A model generated the notes under the pieces. It saw only the letters and a program-made list of their open reading frames with translations, did not search any database and was not told where the DNA came from. The translations under genes and the position numbers were made by a program. From Chthoniobacteraceae bacterium (lineage in GTDB: Bacteria; Verrucomicrobiota; Verrucomicrobiia; Chthoniobacterales; Chthoniobacteraceae): a stretch of 38,897 nt of DNA. The stretch spans positions 1 through 38,897 of the forward strand of contig JAQGOL010000041.1 in NCBI GenBank assembly GCA_028293625.1. The letters run 5' to 3'. Below are positions 1 to 28,232 of the stretch, one piece after another; positions within the stretch are counted from its first letter, which is position 1; each line of letters opens with the position of its first letter.

Positions 1-103
1 CGTTGCGTGCCGCCGGTATGGCGTTCACGCCGAAGGGATCCCACTGCTCCCAAAGAATCAGGTCCACAGCCTCGGATAGTGCCTGCTTGGCTTTCGTTTT
101 CAC
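1..103 (-). CDS. 5' end of a small cassette-like hypothetical protein (runs off the window)
   Basis: An open minus-strand frame starts at a GTG at 103 and runs off the left edge, giving about 34 residues. It begins (M)KTKAKQALSEAV and contains the pattern WEQWDPFGVN followed by IPAARN. I recall this W-DP-GV pattern from small uncharacterised proteins of roughly 80-110 residues that often occur as integron gene cassettes; that is memory, not a search. Its position supports the idea: a GTTAGGC core (attC R' type) sits 18 bp upstream of the GTG, and an integron integrase relic lies further upstream on the same strand. Function unknown. No Shine-Dalgarno sequence is seen. Confidence 0.5.
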   Translation of the reverse strand, partial: MKTKAKQALSEAVDLILWEQWDPFGVNAIPAARN

Positions 104-120
104 GGGACGTGTGCAAACGC

Positions 121-261
121 GCCTAACATATAGTCGGCAGCAGCTGTACTTTTCGGAGGTTTACAGGCATGGGAGCTTAAATGGGCAGCGGCTGCATTTT
201 GTAGGCAAAGGCAGCAGCCTGATTTTTTTACAGCTGCTGTGTTTTGCGGTGCTTGTTTAAA
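121..261. other. attC/attI-like recombination site of an integron
   Basis: The plus strand has GCCTAAC at 121-127, which is GTTAGGC on the minus strand and fits the attC core GTTRRRY exactly. Inside it, CAGCAGCTGTA (138-148) pairs perfectly with TACAGCTGCTG (229-239), giving an 11-bp imperfect-hairpin arm, with further GCAGC/GCTGC palindromes in the loop. The far end (255-261, GTTTAAA) keeps only the GTT of the core. The total of about 140 bp is in the attC size range. The site lies between the integrase relic and the cassette-like gene, as expected for an array with a reverse-oriented integrase. It could be attI, a worn attC, or a coincidental hairpin. Confidence 0.4.
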
Positions 262-431
262 TTTTTATAGGGAGCTGCTTGGGAGAGCCAGCCGTAAAAA
301 ACGAAATCGTTTTTCATGATGGGCTTTCCCTTGGCCGGGGGAAACGGTGTGCCGGGCTTGCGCTTCACGGTGTGCCCGCGGGGATTGCGATGCGCGCAAT
401 CCAGCCGCGTGGTGCGGACTGTAGCCCTCCT

Positions 432-1237
432 TCAAGAGGTGTCGGCGGGACTTCGGATGCTCATGCCGGGTCGGTTCAGGTGGTGGGTGTAAATCATTGT
501 GGTGAAGAGATCGTGATGGCCGAGCGATTCCTGCACGGAGCGGATGTCGCAGCCGTTTCCAGCAAATCGGTGGCAAAACAATGGCGCAGGGTACGGGGTG
601 GCTTATAAATGCCCGCTTTTTTGACCGTTGCTTCGATGGCCCGCTGGAGAAGCGTCTCATGAAGATGATGCCGGTGCACAATGCCCGAGCGGGGATCGAC
701 CGAAAGGCCTGGAGCAGGAAAGCCCCAGAACCGGTCCAAGGTAATGGCGGCATTGGAATATTTGCAGCCGAGCGCATAGGGCACGCCAAGAGCATGATTG
801 TGGAGATCCCTCTCAAAGAGGCGGCGGCTCTCGGAGAGCTGGGTTTTAAGGGAATCGATGGCCGAGTTGTGGGTGATGCGATTCTTGGCGCCTTTGCCAT
901 CGCGCACAAATCTGGCGGCAGCCAAAATCGATCTCCTTGACCCGGAGCCGCAGGCATTCCATGAGCCGGCAAGCCCGCGCCGGAAAGAAGGAGCGCCATC
1001 AGGCGCCAGGGAGGCGGGAGGGCGTCAATTAAAGCGCTGGCTTCGAGGCGGGTGAGCACGATGGGCAGGTGCCGGGCAAAATCCCCGAAATGGCCCGGGC
1101 CCGGCTCGGAAAACCTGTTTGTAAAGGAAAACCAACGCGTTAAACGCCTGGTTTTGGGTGGCCGGATCCACCTTAACCGCCAGATGGGGCACCTCATCGT
1201 GGCGCTTACGACTCTCATATCCCTGCCTCTCCCTCAT
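432..1237 (-). pseudogene. intI: Integron integrase (IntI-type tyrosine recombinase), frameshifted and N-terminally truncated
   Basis: Four consecutive minus-strand pieces in three frames together read as an integron integrase. They are TQNQAFNALVFLYKQVF near 1150, LPIVLTRLEASALIDALP and RLMALLLSGAGL near 1000, VRDGKGAKNRIT through DPRSGIVHRHHLHE and [12 protein letters not shown] at about 560-905, and [24 protein letters not shown] ending in a stop at 432. Box I and box II residues (the R of LRHCFAT, the HH of LGHHD, the Y of MIYTH) are still visible. The DPRSG-RHHL segment is the extra region typical of IntI rather than XerC/D. At least three frameshifts break it, and the roughly 40-residue N-terminal segment before the TQNQ block is missing. 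It points in the same direction as the cassette-like gene downstream, so it would be a reverse-type integrase. Non-functional as it stands. Confidence 0.85.
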
Positions 1238-1248
1238 TAAGCAATATA

Positions 1249-1262
1249 TGTTCGAATGAACA
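1249..1262. promoter_or_regulatory. LexA-type operator at the start of the integrase relic
   Basis: Perfect palindrome TGTTC-GAAT-GAACA lying 11 bp upstream of the ATG at 1237. As I recall, the LexA motif described for Verrucomicrobia is TGTTC-N4-GAACA, and integron integrases are commonly under SOS control. With ten fixed bases and equal base frequencies about 0.04 such sites are expected in a window of this size, so its location at the intI start is unlikely to be chance. Confidence 0.6.
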
Positions 1263-1366
1263 GAGGGTCAAATCCGGTGAGAACGAGGTGCCGGAGGAGC
1301 TTTCCTGCCCGTGCATTCGGCGGGCTGCCTCAGCAACCGGATCATTTGCCTGGGTAACCACCGGCT

Positions 1367-1702
1367 TTAGCCGCGGCGCCTGGCCAAATGGCCGCGTGTC
1401 GGATTGAAACAGCCACGCGTCTGCTGGCATTGGCCGCGTGTCGGATTAGACCGGCCGCGTGTCTGCTCGCATTGGCCGCGCGTCGGATCGGAGCGGCCAC
1501 GCGTCTGCTCGCATTGGCCGCGGGCCGGATCGAACCTGACATGCGTCTGCTCGCATTGGCCGCGGGTCGGATCAGACCAGCCGTGTGTCTGCTGGCATTG
1601 GCCGCATGCGGGATCGGACCAGACTCGCGGCTGTTCAAATCAGCCGCGTGGCCGGTTGCATTAGCCGCGTGTCGGTTCGAACAGGGGTCGCGGCTTCTGG
1701 AA
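1367..1702. repeat. Tandem array of about sixteen 21-bp units paired into 42-bp repeats
   Basis: Units begin at 1367, 1388, 1409, 1430, 1451 and every 21 bp up to 1682. Two half-unit types alternate strictly. Type A reads close to TTGGCCGCGTGTCGGAT plus four variable bases; type B reads close to CCGGCCGCGTGTCTGCTCG plus two. Both share the core GGCCGCGTGTC-G. The ends are more diverged than the middle. 42 is a multiple of three and the units lack stops, so open frames run through the array on both strands; I regard these as by-products. 21 bp equals two helical turns, so each core would face the same side of the helix. There are no unique spacers, so this is not a CRISPR array. Function unknown. 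Apart from the LexA-type box, nothing else is seen in 1238-1863. Confidence 0.85.
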
Positions 1703-1863
1703 AGTAACATCGTTGGTTTACCACTTTCCGACACGATTAGTGACACCGATGCATCGACCGGACTTCATTCGCAGCGTCACAAGTACGGAACAAATAATAC
1801 GGGACAGGTAAATAGTTGGTGTTGTTGGCGGAGTATGCGGAGCGGTTTCGGAAACAGGTCATC

Positions 1864-2190
1864 CTATTGGCGAGACAGGACGGCCTGTTGCCCGAAGAGG
1901 ATTTTCGCCATTTCACTGACCGGCGTTAAGCCGTTGCCCTTCTTCGAACCGTTGATCTTGGACGAAATCCGAGGCTTCAGCGCTCTGCGGATGCCGATGC
2001 CATTGTCGGCCAAAGCCAAGCGGACGAGCCCGTCTTTTCGGTTTACTTAAGCCGCCGCAAAGCCAGGACCGCTGCCGTGCTGGCGGATATTGTTGCCCAC
2101 TTCTGTAAGGAGATACCATACAGCCCGCTGCTCGAAAGTTCGTAATCTTCGCCGCCAGATGCGAAATATCGCGTCCCAAATCTTCCACTG
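1864..2190 (-). pseudogene. Decayed HATPase_c / histidine-kinase-like ATP-binding protein
   Basis: On the minus strand one frame reads an N-box-like segment (LLTEVGNNIRQHG), then LVRLALADNGIGI, the classic G1 box of GHKL ATPases, then KKGNGL followed by VSEMAKILFGQ, a G2-like block, before a TAG at 1864-1866. A TAA at 2047-2049 interrupts the frame between the N box and the G1 box. The region before the N box continues only in another frame (EDLGRDISHLAAKI). It therefore carries at least one nonsense mutation and one frameshift. No sensor or dimerisation domain is left. It may once have been a serine-kinase-type or histidine-kinase-type regulator, but the partner cannot be told. Confidence 0.65.
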
Positions 2191-2289
2191 GAAACTTAAG
2201 AAATCAGGCCGCTGGCATCAATCCGTGCGGGAATAAGAATGTGCGCATTAGACCCGGATGGCCGGTTTTTCAGCTGCCGCCCGATTGCT

Positions 2290-3198
2290 TTACGCGCAGA
2301 GCCAGCCGAGGCGCATCCAGGTCGCAAACCAGCTCTGGACGTTTTGAATCGCGTTTTCGGGGAGCTGGGTGGAATTGCGGAACGCTTCCTCGCACGCTGC
2401 CTCAAGGGATTGACCGTTTTTAAGGGCGATCAAAAGCCGGTATGCCTCCGGATCAAGCCGTTTGAAATAGACCGAATAATCGGCGCGATGCACGGCAAGA
2501 TGAATCCGTGTCGAGCCGGGCTTCGCCACGAGGCGGCGGCTGCGCTGGGGGCGATCGTTGGAGACCGCGTTGCTGAGCGATTCCGTGTCGCGTTTCTTAA
2601 GTTTCCCCAGGAGATCGTCGATGGGATATTCAAGCTCAAGGAGCGTGATGTAAGGCTGAAGCGAGAGCCGGAGCCGGTCCGGTGGAGTCCGCGCGATTTT
2701 TTGCGGGTCGACAGCCGGCTTCTCGGTTCCGTCGAAGGCTTCGACACGCGCCCATTCGACTTGCACCATTTCAACGGCAAGCCGCGCGTCAGGGGCGGTC
2801 AGAGCCGTGTTCTCGCGCACAAACTTCTCCAGGTGCTGCCCCAGGTCGCGCAGATTCCAGGAAGTCGATCCGTATTCTTTAAGATAGGCGATGGCGAGCT
2901 TGTCGAATTTACGCTGGCCAAGCACTCCTCGAAGACCGCGGAAATCCTCACCAAATGCGCCCAGCAGCCGCCACCAGTATTGCTGATTATAAATCTGAAG
3001 CCGCTCAAAGGAGGTGAGGCGGTCGTTTGGGGTGACAAGGGCCGCGGCTTCGGCGGCGGAATCGGGAGTCATCCCGTCAGCTCGCGTGAGCGGACGGGAG
3101 AGCACCTGAAGCATGGAGCGCTGAATTGCCGCAAGCTTGGGCGGCCATGTCGGAAAAGGGATGACGGTCGCTTGGGACGCCGTGACACGCGGCTTCAT
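2290..3198 (-). CDS. bufC: DUF2063 peptide-modification partner protein (BufC/HvfC family)
   Basis: 302 residues. The N-terminal part (about 20-130) has the DUF2063 pattern: an amphipathic start, then RLTSFERLQIYNQQYWWRLL, a run around FGEDFRGLRGVLG, then STSWNLRDLG. The rest is a winged-helix-like C-terminal domain with a Leu/Arg-rich end. In the family such proteins bind the precursor peptide and work with a DUF692 (MNIO) enzyme that modifies cysteines. Its ATG overlaps the stop of the DUF692 gene by 4 bp (ATGA), so the two are almost certainly co-translated. It has no signal peptide and acts in the cytoplasm. It is the last gene of the cluster; no clear terminator is seen after it. Confidence 0.9.
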   Translation of the reverse strand: MKPRVTASQATVIPFPTWPPKLAAIQRSMLQVLSRPLTRADGMTPDSAAEAAALVTPNDRLTSFERLQIYNQQYWWRLLGAFGEDFRGLRGVLGQRKFDKLAIAYLKEYGSTSWNLRDLGQHLEKFVRENTALTAPDARLAVEMVQVEWARVEAFDGTEKPAVDPQKIARTPPDRLRLSLQPYITLLELEYPIDDLLGKLKKRDTESLSNAVSNDRPQRSRRLVAKPGSTRIHLAVHRADYSVYFKRLDPEAYRLLIALKNGQSLEAACEEAFRNSTQLPENAIQNVQSWFATWMRLGWLCA

Positions 3199-4055
3199 GC
3201 GAGCTTTGTGTTTTTGAGAATGGGAACGCGAGGCTGAAAGTTTTTCGCTTTTAAAGCCTCGTTGTGAACCTCATCAAAGGAAGGGATTTTGTCATCCCAT
3301 TCAAGCAGGGTCGCTGTGGGGCCGGAACGAAGGAGGGCGGCGTTGTAGAGTTCCCAGACCGGATCGAGCACGGGATGATCATGGGTATCGAGAATGTATT
3401 TCTCGTACTTGGTATGACCGGCGATATGGATCTGGGCGACGCGGTTATGCGGCACGTTTTCCACATAATCGAGCGGGTTAAACGAATGATTGCGGGAGGA
3501 AACGTAAATATTGTTCACATCGAGGAGGATGCCGCAATCCGCGCGCTCAACCACTTCGCTTAAGAACTCCCATTCGCTCATTTCCGAGGCGTGAAACTCG
3601 GCGTAACTGCTGACATTTTCCACCGCGATTGGGAGTTCGAGAAAGTCCTGTACCTCGCAGATATTGCGGGCGGTTTTTTCGATCGCTTCCCATGTGTAAG
3701 GGACAGGGAGGAGATCGTGGGTGTAGCGGCCGTCGATACTGCCCCAGCAAAGATGATCCGAAAGCCAGGGCGTTTTGGTGCGCCGGGTCAGCGCCTTGAG
3801 CTTTTTAAGGTGATCGCGGTTGGGCCGGTCCGCGTTGCAGAAATACATGGAAACGCCGTGCTGGACGACCCGGTATTGCTCAAGGATCTGATCGAGGATT
3901 TGAAGCGGGCGTCCGCTCTCGACCATGTAATTTTCCGAGATGATTTCGAACCAGTCGACCACCGGTTTTTTCTCAAGAATGTGTTGGTAATGCGGCAGCC
4001 GCAAACCAATGCCGATGCCGTATTCGGTGAATGCGTTGAAGCGGGAAGCTGGCAT
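3195..4055 (-). CDS. bufB: DUF692 multinuclear non-heme iron oxidase (MNIO), RiPP maturase (BufB/HvfB family)
   Basis: 286 residues, normal length for a DUF692 TIM-barrel enzyme. MNIOs use two or three iron ions to oxidise cysteine residues of a precursor peptide, for example to thiooxazoles or oxazolone/thioamide groups. Expected metal-ligand stretches are present in order: GIGLRLPHY near 16-23, EN at 41-42, QHGVSMYF around H66, SDHLCWG around D100-H101, AVENVSSY around E146-N147, DVNNIY around D179, IHIAGH around H210 and H214, DTHDHPV around H225-H227, and LLEWDD around E252. It follows the precursor gene by 96 bp, with a strong hairpin between them, and overlaps the DUF2063 gene by 4 bp. 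Which chemistry it performs cannot be read from the sequence. Confidence 0.93.
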   Translation of the reverse strand: MPASRFNAFTEYGIGIGLRLPHYQHILEKKPVVDWFEIISENYMVESGRPLQILDQILEQYRVVQHGVSMYFCNADRPNRDHLKKLKALTRRTKTPWLSDHLCWGSIDGRYTHDLLPVPYTWEAIEKTARNICEVQDFLELPIAVENVSSYAEFHASEMSEWEFLSEVVERADCGILLDVNNIYVSSRNHSFNPLDYVENVPHNRVAQIHIAGHTKYEKYILDTHDHPVLDPVWELYNAALLRSGPTATLLEWDDKIPSFDEVHNEALKAKNFQPRVPILKNTKLA

Positions 4056-4096
4056 ATCTGAAAACGACTTTTGACTCGTGGACTCGGCAAAGCCAA

Positions 4097-4132
4097 GCCG
4101 GAGTCGCGAAGATTTCTCTCCGCGGCTCCGGC
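4097..4132 (-). promoter_or_regulatory. Strong hairpin between RiPP precursor and maturase genes
   Basis: GCCGGAGTCGCG (4097-4108) pairs with CGCGGCTCCGGC (4121-4132): twelve positions with one mismatch and a 12-nt loop. No U-run follows on the minus strand, so it is not a typical complete terminator. A role as a partial attenuator or 3' stabiliser that raises precursor mRNA above enzyme mRNA is my inference. Confidence 0.5.
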
Positions 4133-4151
4133 GGGAATCTTTCGCTACTGA

Positions 4152-4442
4152 TTACTTGTGAGCAGGCTTGCCGTCTTTGGTCGCGCAGCCGCCCTTGCCT
4201 TTGCAGGAGTTCTTGCCAGCGCAGCCTTTGTCGCCGGTCTTGCAACCGCCCTTGCCTTTGCAGGAGTTTTTGCCAGCGCAGCCGTGGGTATCGCCTTTTT
4301 CTTTTTCGTCAGCGAGAACGCCGGCGGAAGCGCCATTGCTCTGGGTCTTGGTGGAGGTCGCCGCTTGGACGAATCCGCCGCTGAGGATGCCAGCGAGTGC
4401 GGCGCCGGCGAGGAGGGTCTTGGTCGTGGAATTGCGTTTCAT
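4152..4442 (-). CDS. bufA: Cysteine-rich secreted RiPP precursor, bufferin/HvfA type, with duplicated core
   Basis: 96 residues. The N-terminus MKRNSTTKTLLAGAALAGIL with a cut after FVQA is a Sec signal peptide. A linker (about 28-53) leads to two nearly identical 19-residue modules. Each holds GCAGKNSCKGKGGC, that is C-x5-C-x5-C, at C55/C61/C67 and C74/C80/C86, and the tail is KDGKPAHK. All six cysteines lie in the modules. Secreted precursors of this kind, encoded with DUF692 and DUF2063 proteins, are modified in the cytoplasm and exported; characterised bufferins bind copper. Here metal binding is inferred from family and context. An alternative ATG lies 6 bp upstream (4448), with AGAAAG in front of both. 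The gene has about 200 bp of upstream space and probably its own promoter. Confidence 0.88.
   Translation of the reverse strand: MKRNSTTKTLLAGAALAGILSGGFVQAATSTKTQSNGASAGVLADEKEKGDTHGCAGKNSCKGKGGCKTGDKGCAGKNSCKGKGGCATKDGKPAHK
4185..4283. repeat. 57-bp tandem duplication inside the RiPP precursor core
   Basis: A 42-bp block starting at 4185 recurs at 4242 with only two mismatches (40/42), giving a 57-bp period that encodes the two GCAGKNSCKGKGGC modules. Near-identity at the nucleotide level, including synonymous positions, suggests a recent duplication or ongoing homogenisation. Confidence 0.9.
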
Positions 4443-4480
4443 ATGCATTAACTTTCTGTTGTCTGCGTTTTTGGTTTCTT

Positions 4481-4521
4481 GAATGCACCCGCCCCAAAAT
4501 TTTTGGAGCAAGGGGGCATTC
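4481..4521. repeat. Large inverted repeat upstream of the RiPP precursor gene
   Basis: GAATGCACCC (4481-4490) pairs with GGGGGCATTC (4512-4521) with one mismatch. An inner CCAAAA (4494-4499) faces TTTTGG (4501-4506). It lies 33 bp upstream of the first possible precursor start and 122 bp after the dsbD stop. It could terminate dsbD transcription or serve as an operator or leader structure for bufA. No U-run follows it on the minus strand. Confidence 0.45.
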
Positions 4522-4642
4522 AAAAGTGAAGAAAGGCTTTTAAAGCAAGTAGCTGGGGGCAACTTTGACGCGATACCTGCTCAAATATTCCCGAAAACTT
4601 TCAGGAGCGAGCTGAAAAGTGATTTCAAGTAAAATTGAAACA

Positions 4643-6763
4643 CTACGGCTTTGTTTGTGAGAGCGTATGCAGCAGGCTGGTCTGAGTGAGAATCTCCGGC
4701 AACACCACCGGGCTTTCGCTGCCGTTGCCCGGATAATAGAGATAGGCGGGAACGCCAACCCGGCCAAAACGCTTCAACATTTCGGTGATTTTCTTGTCGC
4801 CGTTGGTCCAGTCGGCTTTGAGCGCCACGATTTTTTTCTCTTTAAACGCTGCGCGCACCGGCTCGGTTTCAATCACGACACGTTCGTTGTATTTGCAATT
4901 GAGGCACCAGTCGGCGGTAAAATCGATAAACACAGGCTCGCCGCGCTGAACCGCGGCCATCAGCTTTTCATCTGAAAACGACTGCCAGGGAATGCCGCCT
5001 TCCACGTTTTGTGCCTGCCCATTGTTTTGCACCGGTTTGGAATCGAGCTGGCCTTTTAAAATGAAAAACCATCCGGCGATCACCAATGCCAACACGATGA
5101 TTTTGGCCACGATTCCCCGCGCAAATCCGTAGATCCAGCAGGCTACGCCCAGAACGAGAAGAAACGCCGTCGTCGCCACGATGGCGTTGGTGCCGCCGGT
5201 GGCCCCGAGCACGCTTAACAGCCAGAGCGCCACTCCGAGGAGGACGAATCCCATGAATTGTTTCATGCGCTCCATCCACGCGCCGGGCTTGGGGAGGAAG
5301 CGCATCCAGGCCGGTTGCCAGGTAAGGAGAAAATACGGGAGACTCATCCCGGCGGCGACCACAGCAAAGATCAGGATGACGACGTGGGCCGGCTGGACAA
5401 AGGCGTATCCAAGCACGCCCCCCAGAAATGGAGCGGTACACGAAGTGCCGAGGAGGGTGGTGAACATCCCGTGAGCGAACGCGCCGGAATAACCGTCCTT
5501 GCGGGAAAGGGAATCGAGGGCGGTGGCCGTATCGCTGCCAAGGATGATCTCGAACACCCCAAACATCGAAAGCGCGAAGACAAACACCACGCCAATGAGC
5601 GCCGCGAGAATGTAGGGGTTTTGAAATTGAAATCCCCAGGTTAAGCCGTGTCCAGCGGCCTGGAAGCCAACAACAAGTGCTGCGAGGCAAAGGAAAAATG
5701 TAAATACGCCAGCCACAAACGCGAGACCGAGCCGGAAGACGCGGCGCGGCTCTTCGCCGGCCTGCTGCACAAAGCCAAAGATCTTAAGTGCGATGACAGG
5801 CAGCACGCATGGCATCAGATTAAGGATCAATCCGCCTAAAAACGCGGCCCACAAAATCCCAAGAAGACCGGGTGTTGCTGCGCGCGTGGCGATGGCGCTT
5901 TGAGTCGACGAAGGAACGGCAACTGCCGCAGGGGCGGCGGCGGCAGGTGCTACGACGGCGCTGTCGGTCCGTGAAACCGCCCAGCTTTCGCGGGGAGCTC
6001 CGTCTTTTTGAGTGGCCAGGACGCCTTTGAATCCCTTGGTGTCGCCCTCCACGGGTATGGTGATGACCCGCGATCCATCGGCGGCTGGTTCACTGATGGC
6101 GGGTTGCCCCACCTGCGCTTCGCCCGGCAACGGAAAAAACTCCGCTTTGAACTCTTTTGGCAATCCGCTTAAACGCGCTTTGATTTCTTTCGCGCCGGTT
6201 TCCCATTGAAGTGCAAAAGGGAACGGAGTGGATTTTGGAAGTTGCGCGCGCCATTGAGCAAAAAGCTCCGCGTTGGCGGGCGCGGCTTCCGCTGCAACCG
6301 GCAGGTCGAGGGAAACGTCGCCTTCGCCCGGCACGCAAAGTTTTTCGCAAACCAGCCAGTGGAGATTGGCTTTTAAGGAAATTGAACCCGTTGAGGGCAA
6401 CTGTGCCGGGGGCGTGATTTCCACCAGAAGCAGCACGTCGTTTTCGTAGATGTAAGTCAGTTCGCCTTCATCAACGCGTGCCGTTGGAAGCGGCCATTGG
6501 ATGGGACTGGCTTTGAATCCTTCGGGCAACTGCCAGCTTATCCTGGTAGGCGCGCCCGAGCTGCCGCCAAACTGCCAGTAAGTATGCCAGCCGGACTTCA
6601 TCTTCAGCCGCACCCCCGCCGTGAACGGTTTGCCGGCTACAACCGCCGTGGTGTCCGCGATGAGGCTCGGTGTTACTTTCTCCTCGCCGGAGAAAAGCTG
6701 GGCGCGCGCCGGCAGGCAAAGAGCAAGAAAGCTGAAGAGAACAATCAGGACAGGGCGAAGCAT
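4643..6763 (-). CDS. dsbD: Thiol:disulfide interchange protein, DsbD/ScsB family
   Basis: 706 residues from the ATG at 6763. I chose this start because it begins a clean signal peptide (MLRPVLIVLFSFLALCLPARA); a TTG 42 bp upstream is possible. The layout is a periplasmic N-terminal domain with a Cys pair (C139-EKL-C143), a multi-helix membrane domain carrying LNLMPCVLPVIALK and LLGTSCTAPFLGG, whose cysteines match the DsbD membrane pair, and a C-terminal thioredoxin domain with the active site WCLNC (C620/C623). The protein passes electrons from cytoplasmic thioredoxin to periplasmic thiols. The large N-terminal domain resembles ScsB, a copper-tolerance relative. It lies upstream of the RiPP cluster on the same strand with a 200-bp gap. 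A role in keeping the peptide cysteines reduced is inference. Confidence 0.92.
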   Translation of the reverse strand: MLRPVLIVLFSFLALCLPARAQLFSGEEKVTPSLIADTTAVVAGKPFTAGVRLKMKSGWHTYWQFGGSSGAPTRISWQLPEGFKASPIQWPLPTARVDEGELTYIYENDVLLLVEITPPAQLPSTGSISLKANLHWLVCEKLCVPGEGDVSLDLPVAAEAAPANAELFAQWRAQLPKSTPFPFALQWETGAKEIKARLSGLPKEFKAEFFPLPGEAQVGQPAISEPAADGSRVITIPVEGDTKGFKGVLATQKDGAPRESWAVSRTDSAVVAPAAAAPAAVAVPSSTQSAIATRAATPGLLGILWAAFLGGLILNLMPCVLPVIALKIFGFVQQAGEEPRRVFRLGLAFVAGVFTFFLCLAALVVGFQAAGHGLTWGFQFQNPYILAALIGVVFVFALSMFGVFEIILGSDTATALDSLSRKDGYSGAFAHGMFTTLLGTSCTAPFLGGVLGYAFVQPAHVVILIFAVVAAGMSLPYFLLTWQPAWMRFLPKPGAWMERMKQFMGFVLLGVALWLLSVLGATGGTNAIVATTAFLLVLGVACWIYGFARGIVAKIIVLALVIAGWFFILKGQLDSKPVQNNGQAQNVEGGIPWQSFSDEKLMAAVQRGEPVFIDFTADWCLNCKYNERVVIETEPVRAAFKEKKIVALKADWTNGDKKITEMLKRFGRVGVPAYLYYPGNGSESPVVLPEILTQTSLLHTLSQTKP

Positions 6764-6886
6764 GGGAATGCGGGGTTGGACATTAAGGAACCGTGCAAAT
6801 CGCAAGGTTCGTGGCAGAAATTTTACAACGAATGCGCCAATCAGAGAAGGAATTCGCCGGTTTATTCAATTCGACGGATTCACCGC

Positions 6887-8047
6887 TCAAAGATTCGCGA
6901 AAAGCGCTGCGGAGGCAGTGTAACCGTGGACGAAATTTTTTCCGCCAACAGGTCCGATCTCACCATTGCAGAAAAAGCCGGCACTGGGATGCGAACCGAA
7001 CGTTTCCCGCAAAACTTCCGCATCATGGTTGGCGGTGCCAAACAGATGTTTTCCACGGCCGCTGCATGGGAAGAGCAGAGAGGCAAACGGACGGATCTCC
7101 TTCTGCGCAGCGAGATGTCGCAGCTCCGTGTCGGCGCTGCGCCGGTCGCGGAGTTGAAACTGGAGCGTCTGTCCGACTCGTGGATACGCTCCAAGCGCCA
7201 AAACACCGTGCTCCGGATCGGCTCCAAGGAGGTTGCGCACGAGAAAATCGCCGGTCTTAAATTCATCGACGTATTCAGACACGGCCAGTCCGGCGAAGAT
7301 ATTGCCTTGGGCAAGTTCTTTGTCGCTATCAGGAAGCGCTTCGAAGGTCTCCTGCAAAATCTCGTAAGCAGGCCGGGATCCGAGCGAAAGAACGAAATTT
7401 TGTTCCGCCCCGGTGATGGTGAACGGTTCACCGATCGGCCGGCAACCCTGGCTGACCAATGTCTCCACACGGACCCCGCCTTTATAACCGATTGCCACGG
7501 CGCCCTCAATAATGTGCCGGTCGCGCATCAGAAAAATGTCGTCGCCGCGTTTCCCTCCGCTTGAGATCCCGCCGATACTGGCGACGCCGGGATAAGCGGC
7601 ATTCCACTCGTTCAGCCAGGGTTCAACTGGAAACGCGGTGGGATCGGCTAAAACCGTCCAGGCGTCGACGCCGCGCACGCCGGTGGTCCGATGCCAATAA
7701 TCGGGGGTGGCTGTAGAGTTTTCCGTATCCGCTGCCGTGAGTTCAACCGTGTGAAGCTCTGTTTCGGGGAGGTCGAGTAAAAGAAGCGAAAAACCGGTCG
7801 CGCCCTCGGCTTCGGCGCCGGTGCCAACCAAACCGACGCCACTGCATCCCGCCAGAATCGGGACATGGCCGTGCAACTGGATCAACTCAAGAAAATCGGC
7901 CAGATGCGGCCGGTAATCCGCCGAGGCAAATACAAAGCCACAACTGACGTGGCCGCCGGCCGCGCGCAAAGTCTCGCGAGCCGTATCGATGACGACCTGC
8001 TCAGAATAATGACCAAGGACAAGGCGGGAAGCTGCGGAATTTGGCAT
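6887..8047 (-). CDS. FIST N- and C-domain sensory protein
   Basis: 386 residues with no signal peptide or membrane segment. The N-terminal half has the FIST_N pattern: alternating strands, GCSGVGLVGTGAE near 90, ASIGGISSGG near 180, and the following strand GAVAIGYKG. The C-terminal half matches FIST_C, with AYEILQE, FLVRNLLG, and a Cys-containing end FPCSGRGKHLFG followed by HPSAGFFCNGEIGPVGG. FIST proteins are thought to sense small ligands such as amino acids, often beside chemotaxis or two-component genes. Here no such gene is adjacent, so it is an orphan between a sialate esterase and dsbD. No Shine-Dalgarno sequence precedes the ATG. Confidence 0.9.
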   Translation of the reverse strand: MPNSAASRLVLGHYSEQVVIDTARETLRAAGGHVSCGFVFASADYRPHLADFLELIQLHGHVPILAGCSGVGLVGTGAEAEGATGFSLLLLDLPETELHTVELTAADTENSTATPDYWHRTTGVRGVDAWTVLADPTAFPVEPWLNEWNAAYPGVASIGGISSGGKRGDDIFLMRDRHIIEGAVAIGYKGGVRVETLVSQGCRPIGEPFTITGAEQNFVLSLGSRPAYEILQETFEALPDSDKELAQGNIFAGLAVSEYVDEFKTGDFLVRNLLGADPEHGVLALGAYPRVGQTLQFQLRDRRSADTELRHLAAQKEIRPFASLLFPCSGRGKHLFGTANHDAEVLRETFGSHPSAGFFCNGEIGPVGGKNFVHGYTASAALFANL

Positions 8048-8202
8048 TGGATATTCTGAAATGGTCGACGCGCGTCATGACACCCAACATTGAAAAAGTA
8101 CGCGCCTGCAAGCGCAGCTTTCTGACTTTCACAGAGAATTGTCAATTATTGCCCTTCCCGCGGCCGAACGAGCTCACTTCCGTGTCTATTGAGGCCGGGC
8201 GG

Positions 8203-8224
8203 AAGGCGGATGGACCGCCGCCTT
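8203..8224 (-). terminator. Possible weak terminator after the sialate esterase gene
   Basis: AAGGCGG (8203-8209) pairs with CCGCCTT (8218-8224) around an 8-nt loop, starting 3 bp past the stop of the gene ending at 8228. There is no U-run, so it may only protect the mRNA end. Confidence 0.35.
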
Positions 8225-8227
8225 CAA

Positions 8228-9784
8228 TTACTTTCTTGCCGGGGCAGCCTGCGGCCACGCATCGGTGCGGAACGGCGACGCCGGCAGGCTGGCCGCATTG
8301 ACCAAATTGCACTCAGGATTATCGGCCCACCCGTAACGGACAGCGACGGGATTGGCGATCTCGGGGCTGGAGACCACAATGTGATCGCCCTCAATCGTCA
8401 CGTCCGCCCAGACAAACCTTTTGTCTTCACCGGCAATTGCAAATCCTTTGAGCTTGCCGCCATCGCTCGCTTTCATCCCTTCAGCATTGCTGAAGCTGAG
8501 GCGGATCTTGCCTTCTTCCTGCTGACTGCCTGCCAAAAGCGGACCCGAATAAGCGACTTCCCGATAATAGACCGACGCTTCGGCCGACAATGCGAGGCGG
8601 CGGCCGACTTCCTGTTTGTTTTTGGGATGAATATCGCCGCCTTCACCAACATCGATCGCCACGGCCATGCCCGTATGGGGAAGCTCAAGGGTCATGAGCT
8701 GGGCTTCGCGTAGTTCGGCCCATTGGCTCTCTTCCGGCTGACCGGTCTGCTCGACACCCCGGGCATTGTAGTTGGCCAGCTGAACGAAAAGAAACGGGAA
8801 CTCGACGCCCCAATGCTGCCGCCAGCACTGAATCATCGTTGGGAAAAGCTTTCGATATTGCCTCGCCCGGCTGGCGTTGGATTCGCCCTGATACCAAGTG
8901 GCGCCTTGGATTGTATAAGGCTCGATCGGCGCGATCATTCCGTTGTAAAGGCAGCCCGGACCGCCGAATGCGTTTCCGCCTTTTGGCTCCGCCGGTCTTT
9001 TGGGAGCCGCCGTTCCATTTGCCTTGGCCAGGGCCGCCGCATCTTTCCACTCGGCCAGCGCTTTCTCGTAATCTTCCTTTGCCTTGGGATAGGCGGCTTT
9101 GAGTTGTTCCCACGACTCCGCCAGGGATTTGAAGTCCGGTTCGGCCTCAATGATCTCCTTGGGTGTCCAGTATTCGGCCGGTGTTCCGCCCCAGGAGGTG
9201 TGGATGAGTCCAACCGGGATCTTCATGTCCTCGTGCAGTTTACGGCCGAAAAAATATCCAACCGCGGTAAATCCAAAAACGGTTTCCGGAGTGCAAACCT
9301 CCCATTTGCCGACGCAGTCGGTCTGCGGCTCGTTTTTGGCCGCTTTTTGAACCGTAAACACCCGGATCAAGGGGAAATTGGCGGCCGCTTTTTCTTCCGC
9401 AGCGTTTTTGCCGCCACTGACCTGGAATTCCATGTTGGATTGGCCCGAGCAAACCCATACCTCGCCGACCGCCACATTTTTTACCGTGATGGAATTGTTC
9501 GCGGCAATGGTCAGGTCGCCGATGATGCCCGCTTTTAAATCCGCCAGTTTGACATTCCAGCGGCCATCGGGACCGGCAACGGTCTGCATGTTCCGATTGG
9601 CAAATTGGACGGCCACCTTTTCTCCGGCATCGGCCCAACCCCATACGTTCGCTTTGCTCTCCTGTTGCAGGACCATGTTATCGCTGATCACCGCCGGTAG
9701 TTTTACGTCAGCCCAAAGCGGGCAGGTCAGAAGCGTGGAAACAATGGCAAACGGGACGACGCGGGAGGAGAGGGGAAAGTCCAT
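8228..9784 (-). CDS. Secreted sialate O-acetylesterase (SGNH/GDSL family)
   Basis: 518 residues with a signal peptide (cleavage near WA-DVKLP at about 25). An N-terminal beta domain starts LPAVISDNMVLQQ. The SGNH hydrolase domain follows, with block I VCSGQSNMEF (nucleophile S116), then SWGGTPAEYW, the WYQGESNAS block, and DVGEGGDIHPKNK, which supplies the catalytic Asp-x-x-His-type end. A charged helical insertion (about 235-285, KAKEDYEKALAEW and a Pro/Lys-rich turn) splits the domain, as is usual in this family. The enzyme removes acetyl groups from sialic acids or other acetylated glycans. It is divergently transcribed from the DUF4038 glycosidase across 174 bp that must hold both promoters. 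Confidence 0.93.
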   Translation of the reverse strand: MDFPLSSRVVPFAIVSTLLTCPLWADVKLPAVISDNMVLQQESKANVWGWADAGEKVAVQFANRNMQTVAGPDGRWNVKLADLKAGIIGDLTIAANNSITVKNVAVGEVWVCSGQSNMEFQVSGGKNAAEEKAAANFPLIRVFTVQKAAKNEPQTDCVGKWEVCTPETVFGFTAVGYFFGRKLHEDMKIPVGLIHTSWGGTPAEYWTPKEIIEAEPDFKSLAESWEQLKAAYPKAKEDYEKALAEWKDAAALAKANGTAAPKRPAEPKGGNAFGGPGCLYNGMIAPIEPYTIQGATWYQGESNASRARQYRKLFPTMIQCWRQHWGVEFPFLFVQLANYNARGVEQTGQPEESQWAELREAQLMTLELPHTGMAVAIDVGEGGDIHPKNKQEVGRRLALSAEASVYYREVAYSGPLLAGSQQEEGKIRLSFSNAEGMKASDGGKLKGFAIAGEDKRFVWADVTIEGDHIVVSSPEIANPVAVRYGWADNPECNLVNAASLPASPFRTDAWPQAAPARK

Positions 9785-9958
9785 GGGAAGGGGATTTGAT
9801 GCTTAGTGCTTGCGCATGGTTTCGGCGAGGCAATTTAAGGAGCTGATTGCCAATCGGCGCAATCATCGGGTTCCAAACACATTGTCTCTAAGCACGCATG
9901 TTGATGATGGGTGATATGAGAACCCTTTGCGTCGAAAACTTGAGGGGAAAATGATGCC

Positions 9959-12181
9959 ATGACCTCTCTTTTACCCAGTTCATTTTGGCGCGGAATTTTC
10001 GTTCTGCTTGGATTTACCCTGAGCGCCGCAAACGCCGGGACGGTCCGCACGCAGGCAAATGTGATGGTCGAAATCCCGTTTACGGCAAGCCGCGTTTACC
10101 ACGATCCCTCGAACGAAGTCACTCTCGACGTGACGTTTACCGATCCGGCCGGACACGAATTGTGTGTCCCGGCATTTTGGGCGGGAAAAAATATTTGGAA
10201 AGTGCGGTATGCATCGCCGGTGACGGGATTGCACACGTTTAAAACCGAGTATGCGGACGCGAGCGAAACGGGGCTCCACCACATTGCCGGCAATGTTCAG
10301 GTTGAAGCATACACCGGACTTAATCCGCTTTATCTCCACGGGCCGCTGCGAGTGGCGGCGAGTCGGCGTTACCTCGAGCATCTTGATGGGAAACCGTTCT
10401 TCTGGCTGGGCGATACCTGGTGGATGGGGCTCTGTCAGCGCCTTCAGTGGCCCGCGGAGTTTAAGACGCTGGCCGCCGACCGGAAGGAGAAGGGATTTAC
10501 GGTTGTTCAGATTGTTGCCGGGCTTTACCCGGACATGCCACCCTTTGATCCGCGTGGCGCCAACGAAGCCGGATTTCCCTGGGAAAAAGATTACGCCCGG
10601 ATTCGACCTGAATATTTCGATGCCGCTGATCAACGTCTTGCCCATCTGGTCGAGTCCGGACTGACGCCGTGCATCGTGGGTGCATGGGGTTATTTTCTGC
10701 CGATGATGGGGGTGGAAAAAGCAACGCTTCACTGGCGCAATCTGGTGGCGCGATACGGTGCCATGCCGGTGGTTTGGTGCGTTGCCGGCGAGGCAAATCT
10801 TCCTTATTACCAGGCAAAAGGATTTCCTTACGATGACCGCGTCCAGGTCAAGGGATGGACCGAGGTGACCCGCTCGCTGCGTGCGATGGACCCTTTCAAG
10901 CGGCCCATTACCATTCATCCGACCGGCATCGGACGGCTGAGCGCGCGCAACGCAATCGACGATATTAACCTGATCGACATTGACATGCTTCAAACCCCGC
11001 ATGGCGAGGCGGAAGCGGTTCCGCCTACAGTACAGACTGTCCGCCAATCCTATGCCGATCATCCCGTTTTGCCCGTGATCAACGGCGAGGCCAGTTACGA
11101 GATGCTCAATGGGAAGATCCCTGCACAATGGCCCCGCGCGATGTTCTGGGTCTGCATGTTGAACGGCGCCGGCGGCCATACCTACGGCGCAAACGGGATC
11201 TGGCAATGCAACCGCAAAGACCAGCCGCATGGGCCGTCGCCAACCGCCGGCAGCCCGCCCACTGGTTATGGAACCATTCCATGGGATGAGGCGATGAATC
11301 TCCCGGGCTCAAAACAGATCGCTCTTGGTAAAAGATTGCTGGAACAGTTCCCGTGGCATCAGTTTACGCCGCACCCGGAATGGGCTGGATTTGCCCAGGC
11401 CGCGCAAGTGAACTTCGATGGCGCCCAATGGATTTGGTTCCCGGAAGGAAAACCGCCCCAGGATGCGCCGGTTGAAAAGCGGTTTTTTCGAAAAACGTTC
11501 GTGGTGGATCGAGGAAGTAAAATGCTTGAAGCCCGGCTGCGTCTTTCTGCCGACGATCGTTTTACCGTAAGTCTTAATGGCCATTCACTCGGTGGCGCCG
11601 CCGACTGGCATGGCGGCAAACAATTTAGTGTCGCCTCACTCCTGGCCCCCGGCTCGAATGTCCTTACCGTCGTTGCTGAAAATCTGCCCGCTCCGGTTCC
11701 CGCCAATCCCGCCGGCTTGATTGCGTCCCTGGAAATTCGCTTTGCCAGCGGTGAATTGCTCAAGCTGTCTTCAGACACCACGTGGCGTTGCGCCAAGAGC
11801 GGGGCCGCCGACTGGGAATCATTGGCGTTTGATGACGCAAAGTGGAGCGCAGCCATGTCGGTTGGGGCTTACGGCGATGCGCCGTGGGGACGGTTCGATC
11901 AACCAGCCGCAAACGATCTGGCAGGACCGCAATCTGCGGGAATTCCGGGCGGTGTCCGGGTCATTTATTTGCCTCGCGGCGAACCAGTGACTGTCCGTGG
12001 TCTGGAAGCAAACGGGAAGTGGGACGCATTCTGGTTCAATCCGGTAAGCGGCGAGCGCACGGATTTGCCAACGGTGGGAGCCGATGCCGCCGGAACATGG
12101 AGCTGCCAGCCGCCGGTTGAACACGATTGGGTCTTGATTCTTAATCCCGCGAAACCGGACGCCTCAAAAAAAGCCGGTTGA
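9959..12181 (+). CDS. Secreted DUF5060-DUF4038 glycoside hydrolase (apiosidase-like) with a sugar-binding beta-sandwich insert
   Basis: 740 residues with a signal peptide ending near SAANA. Domains in order: DUF5060 Ig-like (about 30-115); DUF4038 TIM barrel (about 120-465) with PFFWLGDTWWMGL, WCVAGEAN, and INGEASYE, whose Glu residues are the likely catalytic pair; then a module starting AQWIWFPEGKPPQDAP (about 480-640) that resembles the lectin-like N-domain of alpha-L-rhamnosidases; and finally a C-terminal DUF5605/collagen-bind_2-type domain (AGIPGGVRVIYLPRG, WDAFWFNPVSGER). GAGGHTYGANGIWQ is a family hallmark. GAGGGG precedes the ATG by 11 bp. Likely targets are plant or microbial side-chain glycans. 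The middle module between the barrel and the C-terminal domain is less usual. Confidence 0.88.
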   Translation: MTSLLPSSFWRGIFVLLGFTLSAANAGTVRTQANVMVEIPFTASRVYHDPSNEVTLDVTFTDPAGHELCVPAFWAGKNIWKVRYASPVTGLHTFKTEYADASETGLHHIAGNVQVEAYTGLNPLYLHGPLRVAASRRYLEHLDGKPFFWLGDTWWMGLCQRLQWPAEFKTLAADRKEKGFTVVQIVAGLYPDMPPFDPRGANEAGFPWEKDYARIRPEYFDAADQRLAHLVESGLTPCIVGAWGYFLPMMGVEKATLHWRNLVARYGAMPVVWCVAGEANLPYYQAKGFPYDDRVQVKGWTEVTRSLRAMDPFKRPITIHPTGIGRLSARNAIDDINLIDIDMLQTPHGEAEAVPPTVQTVRQSYADHPVLPVINGEASYEMLNGKIPAQWPRAMFWVCMLNGAGGHTYGANGIWQCNRKDQPHGPSPTAGSPPTGYGTIPWDEAMNLPGSKQIALGKRLLEQFPWHQFTPHPEWAGFAQAAQVNFDGAQWIWFPEGKPPQDAPVEKRFFRKTFVVDRGSKMLEARLRLSADDRFTVSLNGHSLGGAADWHGGKQFSVASLLAPGSNVLTVVAENLPAPVPANPAGLIASLEIRFASGELLKLSSDTTWRCAKSGAADWESLAFDDAKWSAAMSVGAYGDAPWGRFDQPAANDLAGPQSAGIPGGVRVIYLPRGEPVTVRGLEANGKWDAFWFNPVSGERTDLPTVGADAAGTWSCQPPVEHDWVLILNPAKPDASKKAG

Positions 12182-18792: not shown

Positions 18793-20325
18793 TTACTTCA
18801 GACTGGTCTGAAGCGCAATCGGAGTATTCTGCACCGGAGCGCTGTTTAACATCTCGAGGATGGTTGCCGGGAAAATACCAAAGAAGATAATTCCCAAAAT
18901 CAGCGCGCCGATGGTGAACCGGGTCAGCGGCCGAATGGTGACAGGTGTTTCGTCCGTCGGTTCCTGCCAATACATGGCGCTTATTACACGCAGGTAGTAA
19001 TAGAAACCGGCGGCCACCGTGACGACGCCAATGCCGATGAGCACAAAATGGTGTTCCCGTACAGCCGCGGCAAACACGAGGAATTTTCCATAGAATCCTG
19101 CCGTGAACGGGATGCCGGCCAGGGAGAGCATCGAAATGAGCATTCCAAAAGCTAAAAACGGTGAGCGTTTGGCCAAGCCGTTGAAGTGAATGATATCGTC
19201 GCCCCGGGAATGATTGGCAACCACGGTCATCACAAGGAAACTTAGCAACGTCATCAGCAAGTAGCCGGCAAGGTAGAAGGAAACCGCTACGTTGCTTTGC
19301 CCCAGGGTGCTCAGGCTCGGTCCGGTGCTGGCCACGGCAACCAGGAGGTAACCTGCATGGCCGATGCTGGAGTAGGCCAGCATCCGTTTGAGATTATCCT
19401 GCGGCATTGCGGCAAGGTTTCCGTAGAGCAAGCTAAGCCCGGCGAGCACAGCCAGGGCACCCATGACCTTCGGGCCAATCTCAGGCAATCCGATGAACGG
19501 TTGGATGACGCGAATAAGGACGATAAACCCCGCGGCCTTTGAGCCTACTGACAGGAATGCCGTAATAGGGGTGGGAGCGCCTTGATAAACATCGGGCACC
19601 CAGATCTGAAATGGTGCGGCAGCAATCTTAAATCCAAGCGACACAAGCACCAGAATAATTCCGAAGAGCAAGGGTGTCTGCGAATCGTGGAGGCGGCCTC
19701 CTTCGGCAAGCATGCCCGGCAAGACTTGAGCAATTCGGAACAGGTTGGTTTCGCCAGTGAGCCCGAATATCCAGGTAATGCCATAGACAAGAAATCCGGT
19801 GCTCAGCGCTCCAAGAATAAGGTATTTGACACCCGCTTCAAGCGAGGTGCTTTGCTTGCGCATATATGCTACCAGAATATAAAAGCTGATAGTGACCAAC
19901 TCAAGAGAGACAAAGATTAGCAGGAAATCAACCGCCGATGCCATGAACATGAGACCCGCGCAGGTCAATACAGGCAGAGCATAGAACTCGCCGGTCCCGG
20001 CGCCCGTCTTCGAGCTTGGAATAAATCGGGCTAGTACACCGCCGTATTCAATCGCCATTACTTGCACGATCATTGTAGTCAGCAGCGCGAGCCGCTTGAA
20101 AAAGAGCGCGGTTTCATCGGCTGAGTAGAAAGCCTTTGAAAGATCGATGCCGGCGTTGCCCGACGTGTGGAACGACCAGGCAAAAACGACTCCGAGAACC
20201 ACGATGGAGAGACGCGCCATCCAGCTCTTGTCTTCGCTGCGCGAAAAAGATTCGGCGAGAAGTAGAAATATCCCGAGTGACAGGACAATAACTTCGAGGG
20301 TGATGGGTGAAAGCGGAGCAGGCAT
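18793..20325 (-). CDS. nuoN: NADH-quinone oxidoreductase subunit N
   Basis: 510 residues from the ATG at 20325 (MPAPLSPITLEVIVLSLG); a TTG 27 bp upstream is possible but unneeded. Hydrophobic throughout, one of the three antiporter-like proton-pumping subunits of Complex I. Family marks are FYALPVLTCAGLMFMASAVD, SLELVTISFYILVAYMR with the essential Glu, AAPFQIWVPDVYQGAPTPIT, LKRMLAYSSIGHAGYLLV with key Lys and His, and FLVFAAAV near the end. Last gene of the operon. Normal length. Confidence 0.96.
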   Translation of the reverse strand: MPAPLSPITLEVIVLSLGIFLLLAESFSRSEDKSWMARLSIVVLGVVFAWSFHTSGNAGIDLSKAFYSADETALFFKRLALLTTMIVQVMAIEYGGVLARFIPSSKTGAGTGEFYALPVLTCAGLMFMASAVDFLLIFVSLELVTISFYILVAYMRKQSTSLEAGVKYLILGALSTGFLVYGITWIFGLTGETNLFRIAQVLPGMLAEGGRLHDSQTPLLFGIILVLVSLGFKIAAAPFQIWVPDVYQGAPTPITAFLSVGSKAAGFIVLIRVIQPFIGLPEIGPKVMGALAVLAGLSLLYGNLAAMPQDNLKRMLAYSSIGHAGYLLVAVASTGPSLSTLGQSNVAVSFYLAGYLLMTLLSFLVMTVVANHSRGDDIIHFNGLAKRSPFLAFGMLISMLSLAGIPFTAGFYGKFLVFAAAVREHHFVLIGIGVVTVAAGFYYYLRVISAMYWQEPTDETPVTIRPLTRFTIGALILGIIFFGIFPATILEMLNSAPVQNTPIALQTSLK

Positions 20326-20409
20326 GGCGTTTAAAAGAGGAGTCGCGCACAAATCGCGCAGACAGCAGGGCGGGTCATCGGCGTCCTTATGAGAGCTAAA
20401 GACACTGTG

Positions 20410-21879: not shown

Positions 21880-21926
21880 GAGCCTGCGTCAGTTAACACT
21901 AAGTCTGGAGAGCGTGTTCATGGCGG

Positions 21927-23738: not shown

Positions 23739-23838
23739 GAAAGTATCAAAAAAGCGAGTTAAAGCCAGGACGGCACGGGAGGGACAGAAAGGAGGAATGC
23801 CGTTCTGTTCCGATCGACGATCGTGCGCGATCTCATCA

Positions 23839-24156
23839 TTAGAACTTCAGCGTGCTAATGTCTTCGACGTGCGTCGTCTGACGGGCACGGAAAAGCGCAA
23901 CAATGATGGCAAGACCGACAGCAACTTCAGCGGCAGCCACGGTAATAATGAAAAATACAAGGACCTGCGCGTTGTAGTTGGGCAATCCGCCGGGCGTTAC
24001 ATTAAAGCGACTGAACGCAACAAGGGAAAGATTTGCTGCGTTGAGCATGAGCTCAAGGCACATGAAAATCGTGATGATATTTCGGCGAAGGAGAACGCCG
24101 GCAAACCCGATGGCAAACAGCAGTCCGCTTGCGAGGAGGTAATGATTGAGGGTCAT
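23839..24156 (-). CDS. nuoK: NADH-quinone oxidoreductase subunit K
   Basis: 105 residues with three membrane helices. The two conserved membrane glutamates are present in [14 protein letters not shown] and [18 protein letters not shown]. Starts 1 bp after the nuoJ stop, so coupled to it. Part of the proton-translocating membrane arm. Confidence 0.97.
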
Positions 24157-24157
24157 G

Positions 24158-24661
24158 TTATTTGAGCTCGCGCCGGGACAGGATTACAACGCCGATAGTA
24201 GCAACCAGAATCAGCACGCCGATGACCTGGAAGGGAAGGTTGTGCGTGGTAAAAAGCGTCATGCCGACTTCGCGCACGTCGTCGATTTTTTCAGCGCGTA
24301 AAGCTGGAAAAGGACTTTCTCCAAGTTTGAATCGTCCAAGGACAAGAACGAGTTCCCCGACAAAACCAACCGATACCAGCACACCGCCGCCGACAGCCAG
24401 AAGGTTGAATTTGCGACGGCGTTCCGCTTTTAAATCCATCAGCATGATGATGAAGAGGAAAAGCACCATGACCGCACCAGCGTAAACGAGCACCTGGATG
24501 ACAGCGATGAAATAGGCGTTTAAGCCGACGAAAAGCGCTGCCAGGCTCAAAAATGTAACCACCAGGCTAAGCGCACTGGCAACGGGGTTGCGATTGACCA
24601 CGACGAGCGTGGCAAACGCGAGCATGAGAAAAGTAAAAAACCAGAATAGGACGGGCGACAT
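24158..24661 (-). CDS. nuoJ: NADH-quinone oxidoreductase subunit J
   Basis: 167 residues, five helices. The family marks are [20 protein letters not shown] and the helix-3 pi-bulge segment [20 protein letters not shown], nearly invariant in NuoJ. The end ([20 protein letters not shown]) is the last helix. It sits 48 bp after nuoI and directly before nuoK. Confidence 0.97.
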
Positions 24662-24709
24662 GAGAATCGGTTTGCCTGGAGAGGGCGAGGGTGGTTGCGG
24701 CTTGTCCGG

Positions 24710-25240: not shown

Positions 25241-25247
25241 GCGGCGG

Positions 25248-26438: not shown

Positions 26439-26453
26439 GGAGAGGTGATCGCG

Positions 26454-28127: not shown

Positions 28128-28232
28128 TTAGGAAAGTCGAAGTCCTGCTCGCGAAATCATGGGCGGGGAAGTGATGTGGTGTTGATGCTGGTAACCCTTG
28201 GTTGATTTCGCCCGCGGAATTTTATGGCTTGT

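Follow-up and report, generated by a model that had tools for sequence, protein, structure and literature searches.

The closest described systems to the locus reported here are the Buf2 bufferins and the Cys-Lys group of captophorins, which in PMC12668002 includes BufA2. A six-cysteine core with Cys-Lys motifs belongs to this published group (PMC12452194; PMC12668002). In the characterised relatives, the RiPP (ribosomally synthesized and post-translationally modified peptide) recognition element (RRE) of a partner protein presents the precursor, a multinuclear non-heme iron-dependent oxidative enzyme (MNIO) converts cysteine to 5-thiooxazole with a loss of four hydrogens, and the product binds copper (PMC12668002; PMC12538549). 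A Buf1-like role has been reported for Buf2 on a preliminary basis (PMC12452194). In 2021, Gammaproteobacteria from Antarctic soil were reported to encode a six-cysteine precursor next to DUF692 and DUF2063 genes, with homologues described as almost exclusively proteobacterial (PMC8692599); this precursor has been linked to Buf2 (PMC12452194). In the present study, we analysed contig JAQGOL010000041.1 of a Chthoniobacteraceae bacterium over its 38,897 nucleotides (the window, i.e., this whole stretch), in which the genes bufA, bufB and bufC, judged from their sequences, are a cluster of this known kind, a Buf2-type bufferin of the captophorin Cys-Lys group and not an HvfA-like one, with a core that differs from the studied version. 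We consider it highly likely that they represent a Buf2-type cluster of a tail-less lineage in which the sixth cysteine has moved and the core consists of two C-x5-C-x5-C modules.

The three genes lie on the minus strand in the order bufA-bufB-bufC, running from 4442 to 2290, with open reading frames (ORFs) at the coordinates below; the end of bufB and the start of bufC share 4 nt (3195-3198).

4152..4442, minus strand: bufA, secreted precursor of 96 aa, variant of the Buf2 type with six cysteines (translation; BufA2 model NF050166, 32.1 bits)
4362..4442, minus strand: putative signal peptide, BufA residues 1-27, with cleavage placed by eye after VQA and before A (alignment)
4242..4283, minus strand: core module 1, BufA residues 54-67, GCAGKNSCKGKGGC
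4185..4226, minus strand: core module 2, BufA residues 73-86, GCAGKNSCKGKGGC
3195..4055, minus strand: bufB, predicted MNIO (DUF692) maturase of 286 aa with the motif LLEWDD (PF05114, NF050167, PDB 3bww)
2290..3198, minus strand: bufC, predicted PME-type 1 partner of 302 aa, DUF2063 with an RRE-like C-terminal domain (PF09836, model)
2293..2673, minus strand: predicted RRE-like domain of BufC, residues 176-302 (TbiB1 5v1v, NGO1945_C)

Regarding the precursor, the six cysteines of BufA stand at 55, 61, 67, 74, 80 and 86 (spacing 5-5-6-5-5), behind a Sec signal peptide that was judged by eye. The module GCAGKNSCKGKGGC occurs exactly twice, with KTGDK between the copies; translation thus bore out the initial annotation, which had described a C-x5-C-x5-C core repeated exactly twice with six cysteines and had set it apart from the EGKCG type, a motif that BufA lacks. 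Lysine follows C61, C67 and C80, which gives the precursor multiple Cys-Lys motifs, and alanine follows the first, fourth and sixth cysteines. The DNA copies of the module are identical at 40 of 42 bases, the maximum in 300 codon shuffles of bufA being 31. Among 61 two-module precursors (the window and 60 related loci), the window alone has 14/14 identical module residues, with 13/14 in four and 12/14 in 23 others, and its inter-module DNA identity is the highest. The window thus stands at the top of a graded series: its exact identity differs in degree from the module identity at other loci, and its two identical modules mark the upper end of normal variation. Mean module DNA identity was 0.79 within a gene, 0.75 for module 1 and 0.84 for module 2 between genes, and 0.76 across modules; concerted evolution of the modules was considered and found unsupported because within-gene identity never exceeded the best orthologous one (0 of 61 loci). 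Residues A15 and G18 of the signal peptide are invariant in 50 aligned six-cysteine precursors, which fits a dual signal and leader role, and by analogy the signal peptide of BufA may double as the leader; preliminary results on the signal peptide in a leader role have been reported for Buf1 (PMC12452194). An AlphaFold2 model of BufA (50 sequences) had no confident fold (mean pLDDT 50.8), and BufA scored 16.2 bits against the Pfam family DUF7640 (cut-off 28.1), a weak match that was taken as compositional chance.

BufB matched PF05114 with 351.3 bits and the NCBI BufB model NF050167 with 343.7 bits (cut-off 310), and BufC matched PF09836 (DUF2063) with 50.8 bits (cut-off 27.2), in agreement with the previous recognition of the precursor, DUF692 and DUF2063 genes as a bufferin set. 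BufB fell under the cut-off of the HvfB model and likewise under those of the ApyH, ChrH and MbnB models, and it matched PDB 3bww with an E-value of 6.9e-44. His66, His101, Glu146, Asp179, Asn182, Asp223, His225, Glu252 and Asp254 are kept in all 86 rows of the enzyme alignment and His210 in 85, and we take this conserved His/Asp/Glu/Asn set to be the metal and catalytic residues. Within LLEWDD, D254 was taken as the base and D255 as the substrate-selectivity site; the selectivity sites were mapped by the motif and by alignment with 3bww, and their equivalence to the FonB numbers (Phe250, Arg16) is presumed. D255 lies at the presumed FonB Phe250 site and L20, which aligns with the second arginine of an Arg pair in 3bww, at the presumed Arg16 site, as expected of a Cys-Lys enzyme; the selectivity residue is reported to be Phe in EGKCG-type (Lys-Cys) enzymes and Asp in Cys-Lys enzymes (PMC12668002).

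An AlphaFold2 model of BufC (42 sequences) had a pLDDT of 89.8. Over 193 residues, this model aligned with NGO1945 (3dee) at a Z of 14.3; the TglHI complex gave a Z of 13.1 for its chain A (8hci), and residues 176-302 of the model matched the leader-peptide-binding protein TbiB1 (5v1v) with a Z of 8.4 (85 aligned residues, root mean square deviation 2.5), a Z of 8 to 14 being possible for helical models in general. In Foldseek, the match to 3dee had an E-value of 1.3e-05 and a TM-score of 0.68 normalised by the length of 3dee; the top three matches were all partner proteins of MNIOs and the fourth had an E-value of 0.31, which favours kinship. The score against NGO1945_C was 24.8 bits, slightly under the cut-off of 27. 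Judged from this model, BufC is a PME-type 1 partner that combines DUF2063 with an RRE-like fold.

The comparison of precursor families by hidden Markov models that had been suggested in the initial annotation did return BufA2 for BufA, at 32.1 bits and below the cut-off of 60, and we filed the cluster as a variant on this ground. Three proteobacterial BufA2 controls scored 83-106 bits and covered the whole profile; five precursors from relatives of the window scored 15-42 bits, and their matches, as well as that of the window, reached no further than positions 60-67 of the 79 in the profile. The spacing of proteobacterial Buf2 precursors was 5-5-6-5-12 in 11/11 from plasmid records, a non-random sample in which three lay beside BufB matches and eight were chosen from 25 records resembling one of these; this spacing is our own, unpublished yardstick, and the window departs from it. 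One of the 11 precursors continues into a second domain that is cut by the end of the stretch. The spacing from Cys1 to Cys5 (5-5-6-5) is identical in the window and the proteobacterial peptides, whereas Cys6 stands at +5 instead of +12 and the C-terminal tail is gone, leaving a clean two-module repeat, which accounts for the missed BufA2 cut-off. The proposal that the cysteine spacing is new was therefore retained in part: it does not extend to the six-cysteine Cys-Lys core and its first five cysteines, and it applies to the position of Cys6, in a form that is nevertheless common to many loci of the Acidobacteriota and Verrucomicrobiota type.

The cluster further resembles those of the Buf2 bufferins (Buf_6/12Cys) in its bufA-bufB-bufC order, putative signal peptide, six cysteines, DUF2063 partner and BufB score above the cut-off, and differs from them in the variable module number of its lineage and in a contig without doxX. 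It shares with the Cys-Lys captophorins (PMC12668002; PMC13097082) an MNIO, an RRE-like partner, C-K motifs and Asp at the presumed selectivity site, whereas three of its six cysteines precede alanine and its product is a predicted one. A signal-peptide precursor, an MNIO and DUF2063 are common to the Buf1 bufferins (DUF2282), in which four cysteines are conserved, in contrast to six in the window; four core cysteines also occur in 13 of the 80 related loci described below, in a different layout, and a Pfam scan of BufA gave no DUF2282 match up to an E-value of 1. The tail-less modular core was not found treated in the available text of the bufferin, captophorin and DUF692-Acidobacteriota literature (PMC12452194; PMC13097082; PMC8692599; PMC11118758), and the available main texts of PMC12452194 and PMC13097082, figures and supplements lying outside this scope, contain neither "verrucomicrob" nor "acidobacter". 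A literature search for MNIO with the stem Verrucomicrobi returned no paper, and one for the letters of the core returned chance matches only.

The lineage was sampled through the best 80 of at least 562 confirmed BufB relatives in the genome collection, which are 73-83% identical and biased to close kin; their records are labelled Verrucomicrobiota or Acidobacteriota, plus one Planctomycetota. The precursor motif lies 5' of bufB in 79 of the 80 (77 by tblastn of BufA), and bufC lies 3' of bufB in 75, the remaining five being at contig ends. The core ends in 5-5-6-5-5 at 60 loci, 50 with six cysteines only and 10 with extra cysteines before the core. Four core cysteines are present at 13 loci (5-13-5, 5-15-5 or 5-10-5, Cys3 and Cys4 missing together), a single module at two (L032 and L109) and other forms at four (L033, L040, L081 and L097), and the motif is absent from L092, for which 413 bases upstream were available. 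Precursors with 10 or 11 cysteines (L079, L097 and L105) all fall in the group containing Opitutaceae. The form of L033 is probably a frameshift in a low-coverage assembly, and the single module of L032 may reflect a repeat that collapsed during assembly. In the 60 six-cysteine cores, lysine follows Cys2 in 59, Cys5 in 58, Cys3 in 56, Cys4 in 52, Cys1 in 49 and Cys6 in seven; after Cys6, alanine leads (40). A Cys3-Cys4 pair is not claimed from the joint loss because a single deletion event can account for the absence of both residues and Cys3 persists without Cys4 in L040. The lineage is one of soil-type bacteria with a repeated two-block core.

In an enzyme tree of 86 rows, midpoint-rooted for drawing only, a split with 99/99 support sets the lineage apart from five proteobacterial enzymes (three of Buf2 and two of Buf1 type). 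The window fell within an eight-row Chthoniobacter-type group (100/99), which makes vertical descent of its cluster likely on sequence grounds; its terminal branch, at 0.45, is one of the longer in the tree, with the conserved enzyme residues intact. The four-cysteine form required three changes on the tree, of which firmly supported branches force only one. No precursor relative was confirmed in the viral collection, and none was found for P0001 among plasmids with the low-complexity filter on. In the cultured Chthoniobacter flavus Ellin428, contigs L037 and L055 each carry bufA-bufB-bufC with a 5-5-6-5-5 precursor. A precursor and BufB of this lineage were also present in a contig titled Phycisphaerales (Planctomycetota; L096), by transfer or mis-binning.

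Searches with the BufA2 model found no match above the cut-off in 288 genomes of the phylum or in 97 relatives, two overlapping sets that both include the window genome; matches below the cut-off were present in 12/288 (E-value 0.001) and 28/97 (E-value 0.01, own genome included). The same search gave matches above the cut-off in three of three plasmid records with known BufA2. Among 14 control genomes, there was one match at an E-value of 0.01 (Lactococcus lactis, below the cut-off) and none at 0.001; Caulobacter vibrioides, for which Buf2 has been reported (PMC12452194), gave no match, which indicates that the genome search can miss genes. Considering the scores of the sampled Verrucomicrobiota genomes and of the Acidobacteriota-type precursors tested, such peptides are probably under-annotated. 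Rather than a new system, the cluster represents a widespread, under-called form that raises a chemistry question for the modification of Buf2 as described in the available literature. Precursors with one, two or many modules and with four, five or six cysteines, beside enzymes 73-83% identical to that of the window, constitute a ready natural panel, suited to the questions of which cysteines are modified by an MNIO and in what manner the enzyme progresses along a substrate with repeats.

By analogy with the characterised relatives, from which the modification, the timing of export and the metal are drawn, the three genes very probably make an exported Cys-rich peptide that is converted by its two partners into a copper trap. 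The RRE-like domain of BufC would bind the N-terminal part of BufA, probably with the signal peptide included, and present it to BufB, the iron centre of which would oxidise core cysteines together with the carbonyl of the preceding residue to 5-thiooxazoles, with a loss of four hydrogens each; the modified BufA would then exit by Sec and chelate or buffer copper in the periplasm. The natural four-cysteine (Cys1, 2, 5 and 6) and three-cysteine (one-module) forms point to N-x-C-K-G as the essential site and to the retention of a flanking pair, as in Buf1. As a guess at the order, C2 and C5 in N-x-C-K-G would be modified first, followed by C3 and C4, and C1 and C6 would either be modified or form an outer disulfide, as reported for the outer cysteines of Buf1 (PMC12452194). 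A broader idea, which we regard as rather unlikely, is that the bufferin of Acidobacteriota and Verrucomicrobiota is a distinct, modular one in which C-x5-C-x5-C would be a self-contained copper-binding unit that is duplicated, trimmed (Cys3 and Cys4 lost together) or deleted, the number of modules would set the metal stoichiometry, and the moved Cys6 would be a modification site instead of the possible outer-disulfide cysteine of proteobacterial Buf2.

Several points weigh against a Buf2-type copper-binding product. Besides the low BufA2 score, strict Cys-Lys sites account for three of the six cysteines of the window precursor; Asp at the selectivity site, present in the window and 75 of the 80 relatives, is replaced by Ala in four and Ser in one, and the three proteobacterial Buf2 enzymes have Asp in one and Gly in two. 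The modification of Buf2 itself is described as preliminary, with the same mass loss per cysteine and absorbance at 305 nm (PMC12452194), and a simple copper story is at odds with the Microbulbifer cluster, reported as not expressed under copper stress (PMC12538549). Furthermore, doxX, a usual member of bufferin clusters, is absent from the window contig, the six DoxX matches of the genome being on other contigs, and no copper gene was found among the neighbours scanned, which covered part of the window's ORFs. In the lineage, doxX follows bufC in at least eight of 22 listed loci (nine short downstream ORFs were scanned: eight DoxX and one HPPK).

Two further features lie upstream of bufA:

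4643..6805, minus strand: dsbD-like thiol:disulfide interchange gene (DsbD_N, DsbD_TM and Thioredoxin_7 matches)
4479..4523, minus strand: imperfect inverted repeat or hairpin, candidate regulatory site, 36 nt 5' of the bufA start

The dsbD-like gene, 200 bp upstream of bufA on the same strand, bears on an explanation in which a Buf2-shaped precursor would serve another stress (gold, mercury, zinc or thiol/oxidative) and the dsbD-like product, as a redox partner, would keep the exported thiols reduced. Of 12 distinct loci of close kin in which the stretch was long enough, five have such a gene upstream (the window, L032, L035, L037 and L137; L033 and L147 were left out as too short), and it is the next gene in the window, L032 and L035; PMC12452194 mentions operons induced by gold as well as fusions with MerC. 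A supply of electrons to periplasmic thiols would be an attractive role for its product. However, the stretches fetched for seven of the 12 loci lack it, no metal gene was found among the neighbours scanned, and the link, seen in close kin only, accompanies synteny on a larger scale: in the window, a single gene separates dsbD from a SASA-family esterase gene, which adjoins dsbD in L144. This points to shared synteny, and shared ancestry may explain the association. We regard this explanation as improbable next to a Buf2-type copper trap. In L137, the space between dsbD and bufA holds, on the opposite strand, an ORF of 645 aa with sigma-70 regions 2 and 4 at its end (3110-5047, minus strand); sigma factors are described in Buf1 clusters and not in Buf2 clusters (PMC12452194).

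An unmodified, metallothionein-like Cys-rich protein beside enzymes that act elsewhere would agree with six cysteines within 32 residues and with the lack of a confident BufA fold, but we think it very improbable because the precursor motif precedes bufB throughout nearly the whole sample and the window genome (96.4% complete, 43 contigs) contains a single match of each kind (MNIO, DUF2063 and BufA2-like), which leaves the enzymes one obvious substrate. The HvfA/oxazolin type with EGKCG repeats and Lys-Cys motifs, to which the initial annotation's label had pointed and which, like fontiphorin and bulbicupramide, shares the gene set, a repeat-type core and probably the same heterocycle, may be set aside as extremely improbable because motif and spacing differ, the match of BufB to the HvfB model (240.9 bits) misses the cut-off of 360, the residue reported as Phe in Lys-Cys enzymes (PMC12668002) is Asp255 in BufB, and 3bww, with RDF at this site and an N-terminal Arg pair, looks of the Lys-Cys kind, unlike BufB of the window.

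Regarding the candidate regulatory site, the 200-nt region 5' of bufA, which is single-copy in the genome, folds with a z of -2.54 (two of 200 shuffles as good); the hairpin was not seen by eye in six upstream regions of kin, and Rfam gave no match in 1-10000. Among 39 selected upstream regions, some 7-9-mers exceeded block shuffles (7-mers reached 10 regions, compared with a shuffled mean maximum of 5.5). Most of these resemble ribosome sites or runs rich in A, and a few, CTGTAACCT in five regions among them, may be shared by kin only.

Elsewhere in the window, a 42-bp tandem array (1389-1633; 5.8 copies, 81% matches) is open in several frames, with no Pfam match for the two overlying ORFs. 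Approximately 1.4 kb downstream of bufC (432-925, minus strand), there are tyrosine recombinase fragments that appear frameshifted or decayed, two overlapping ORFs in different frames matching Phage_integrase with 29.6 and 17.2 bits (cut-off 27.1); their residue pattern resembles, as we presume, that of integron integrases. Several genes of the respiratory complex I type lie at 18793-30251 (Proton_antipo_M twice, NADHdh and NuoG-like), and the ORF at 28233-30251 fuses NuoE-like and NuoF-like domains.

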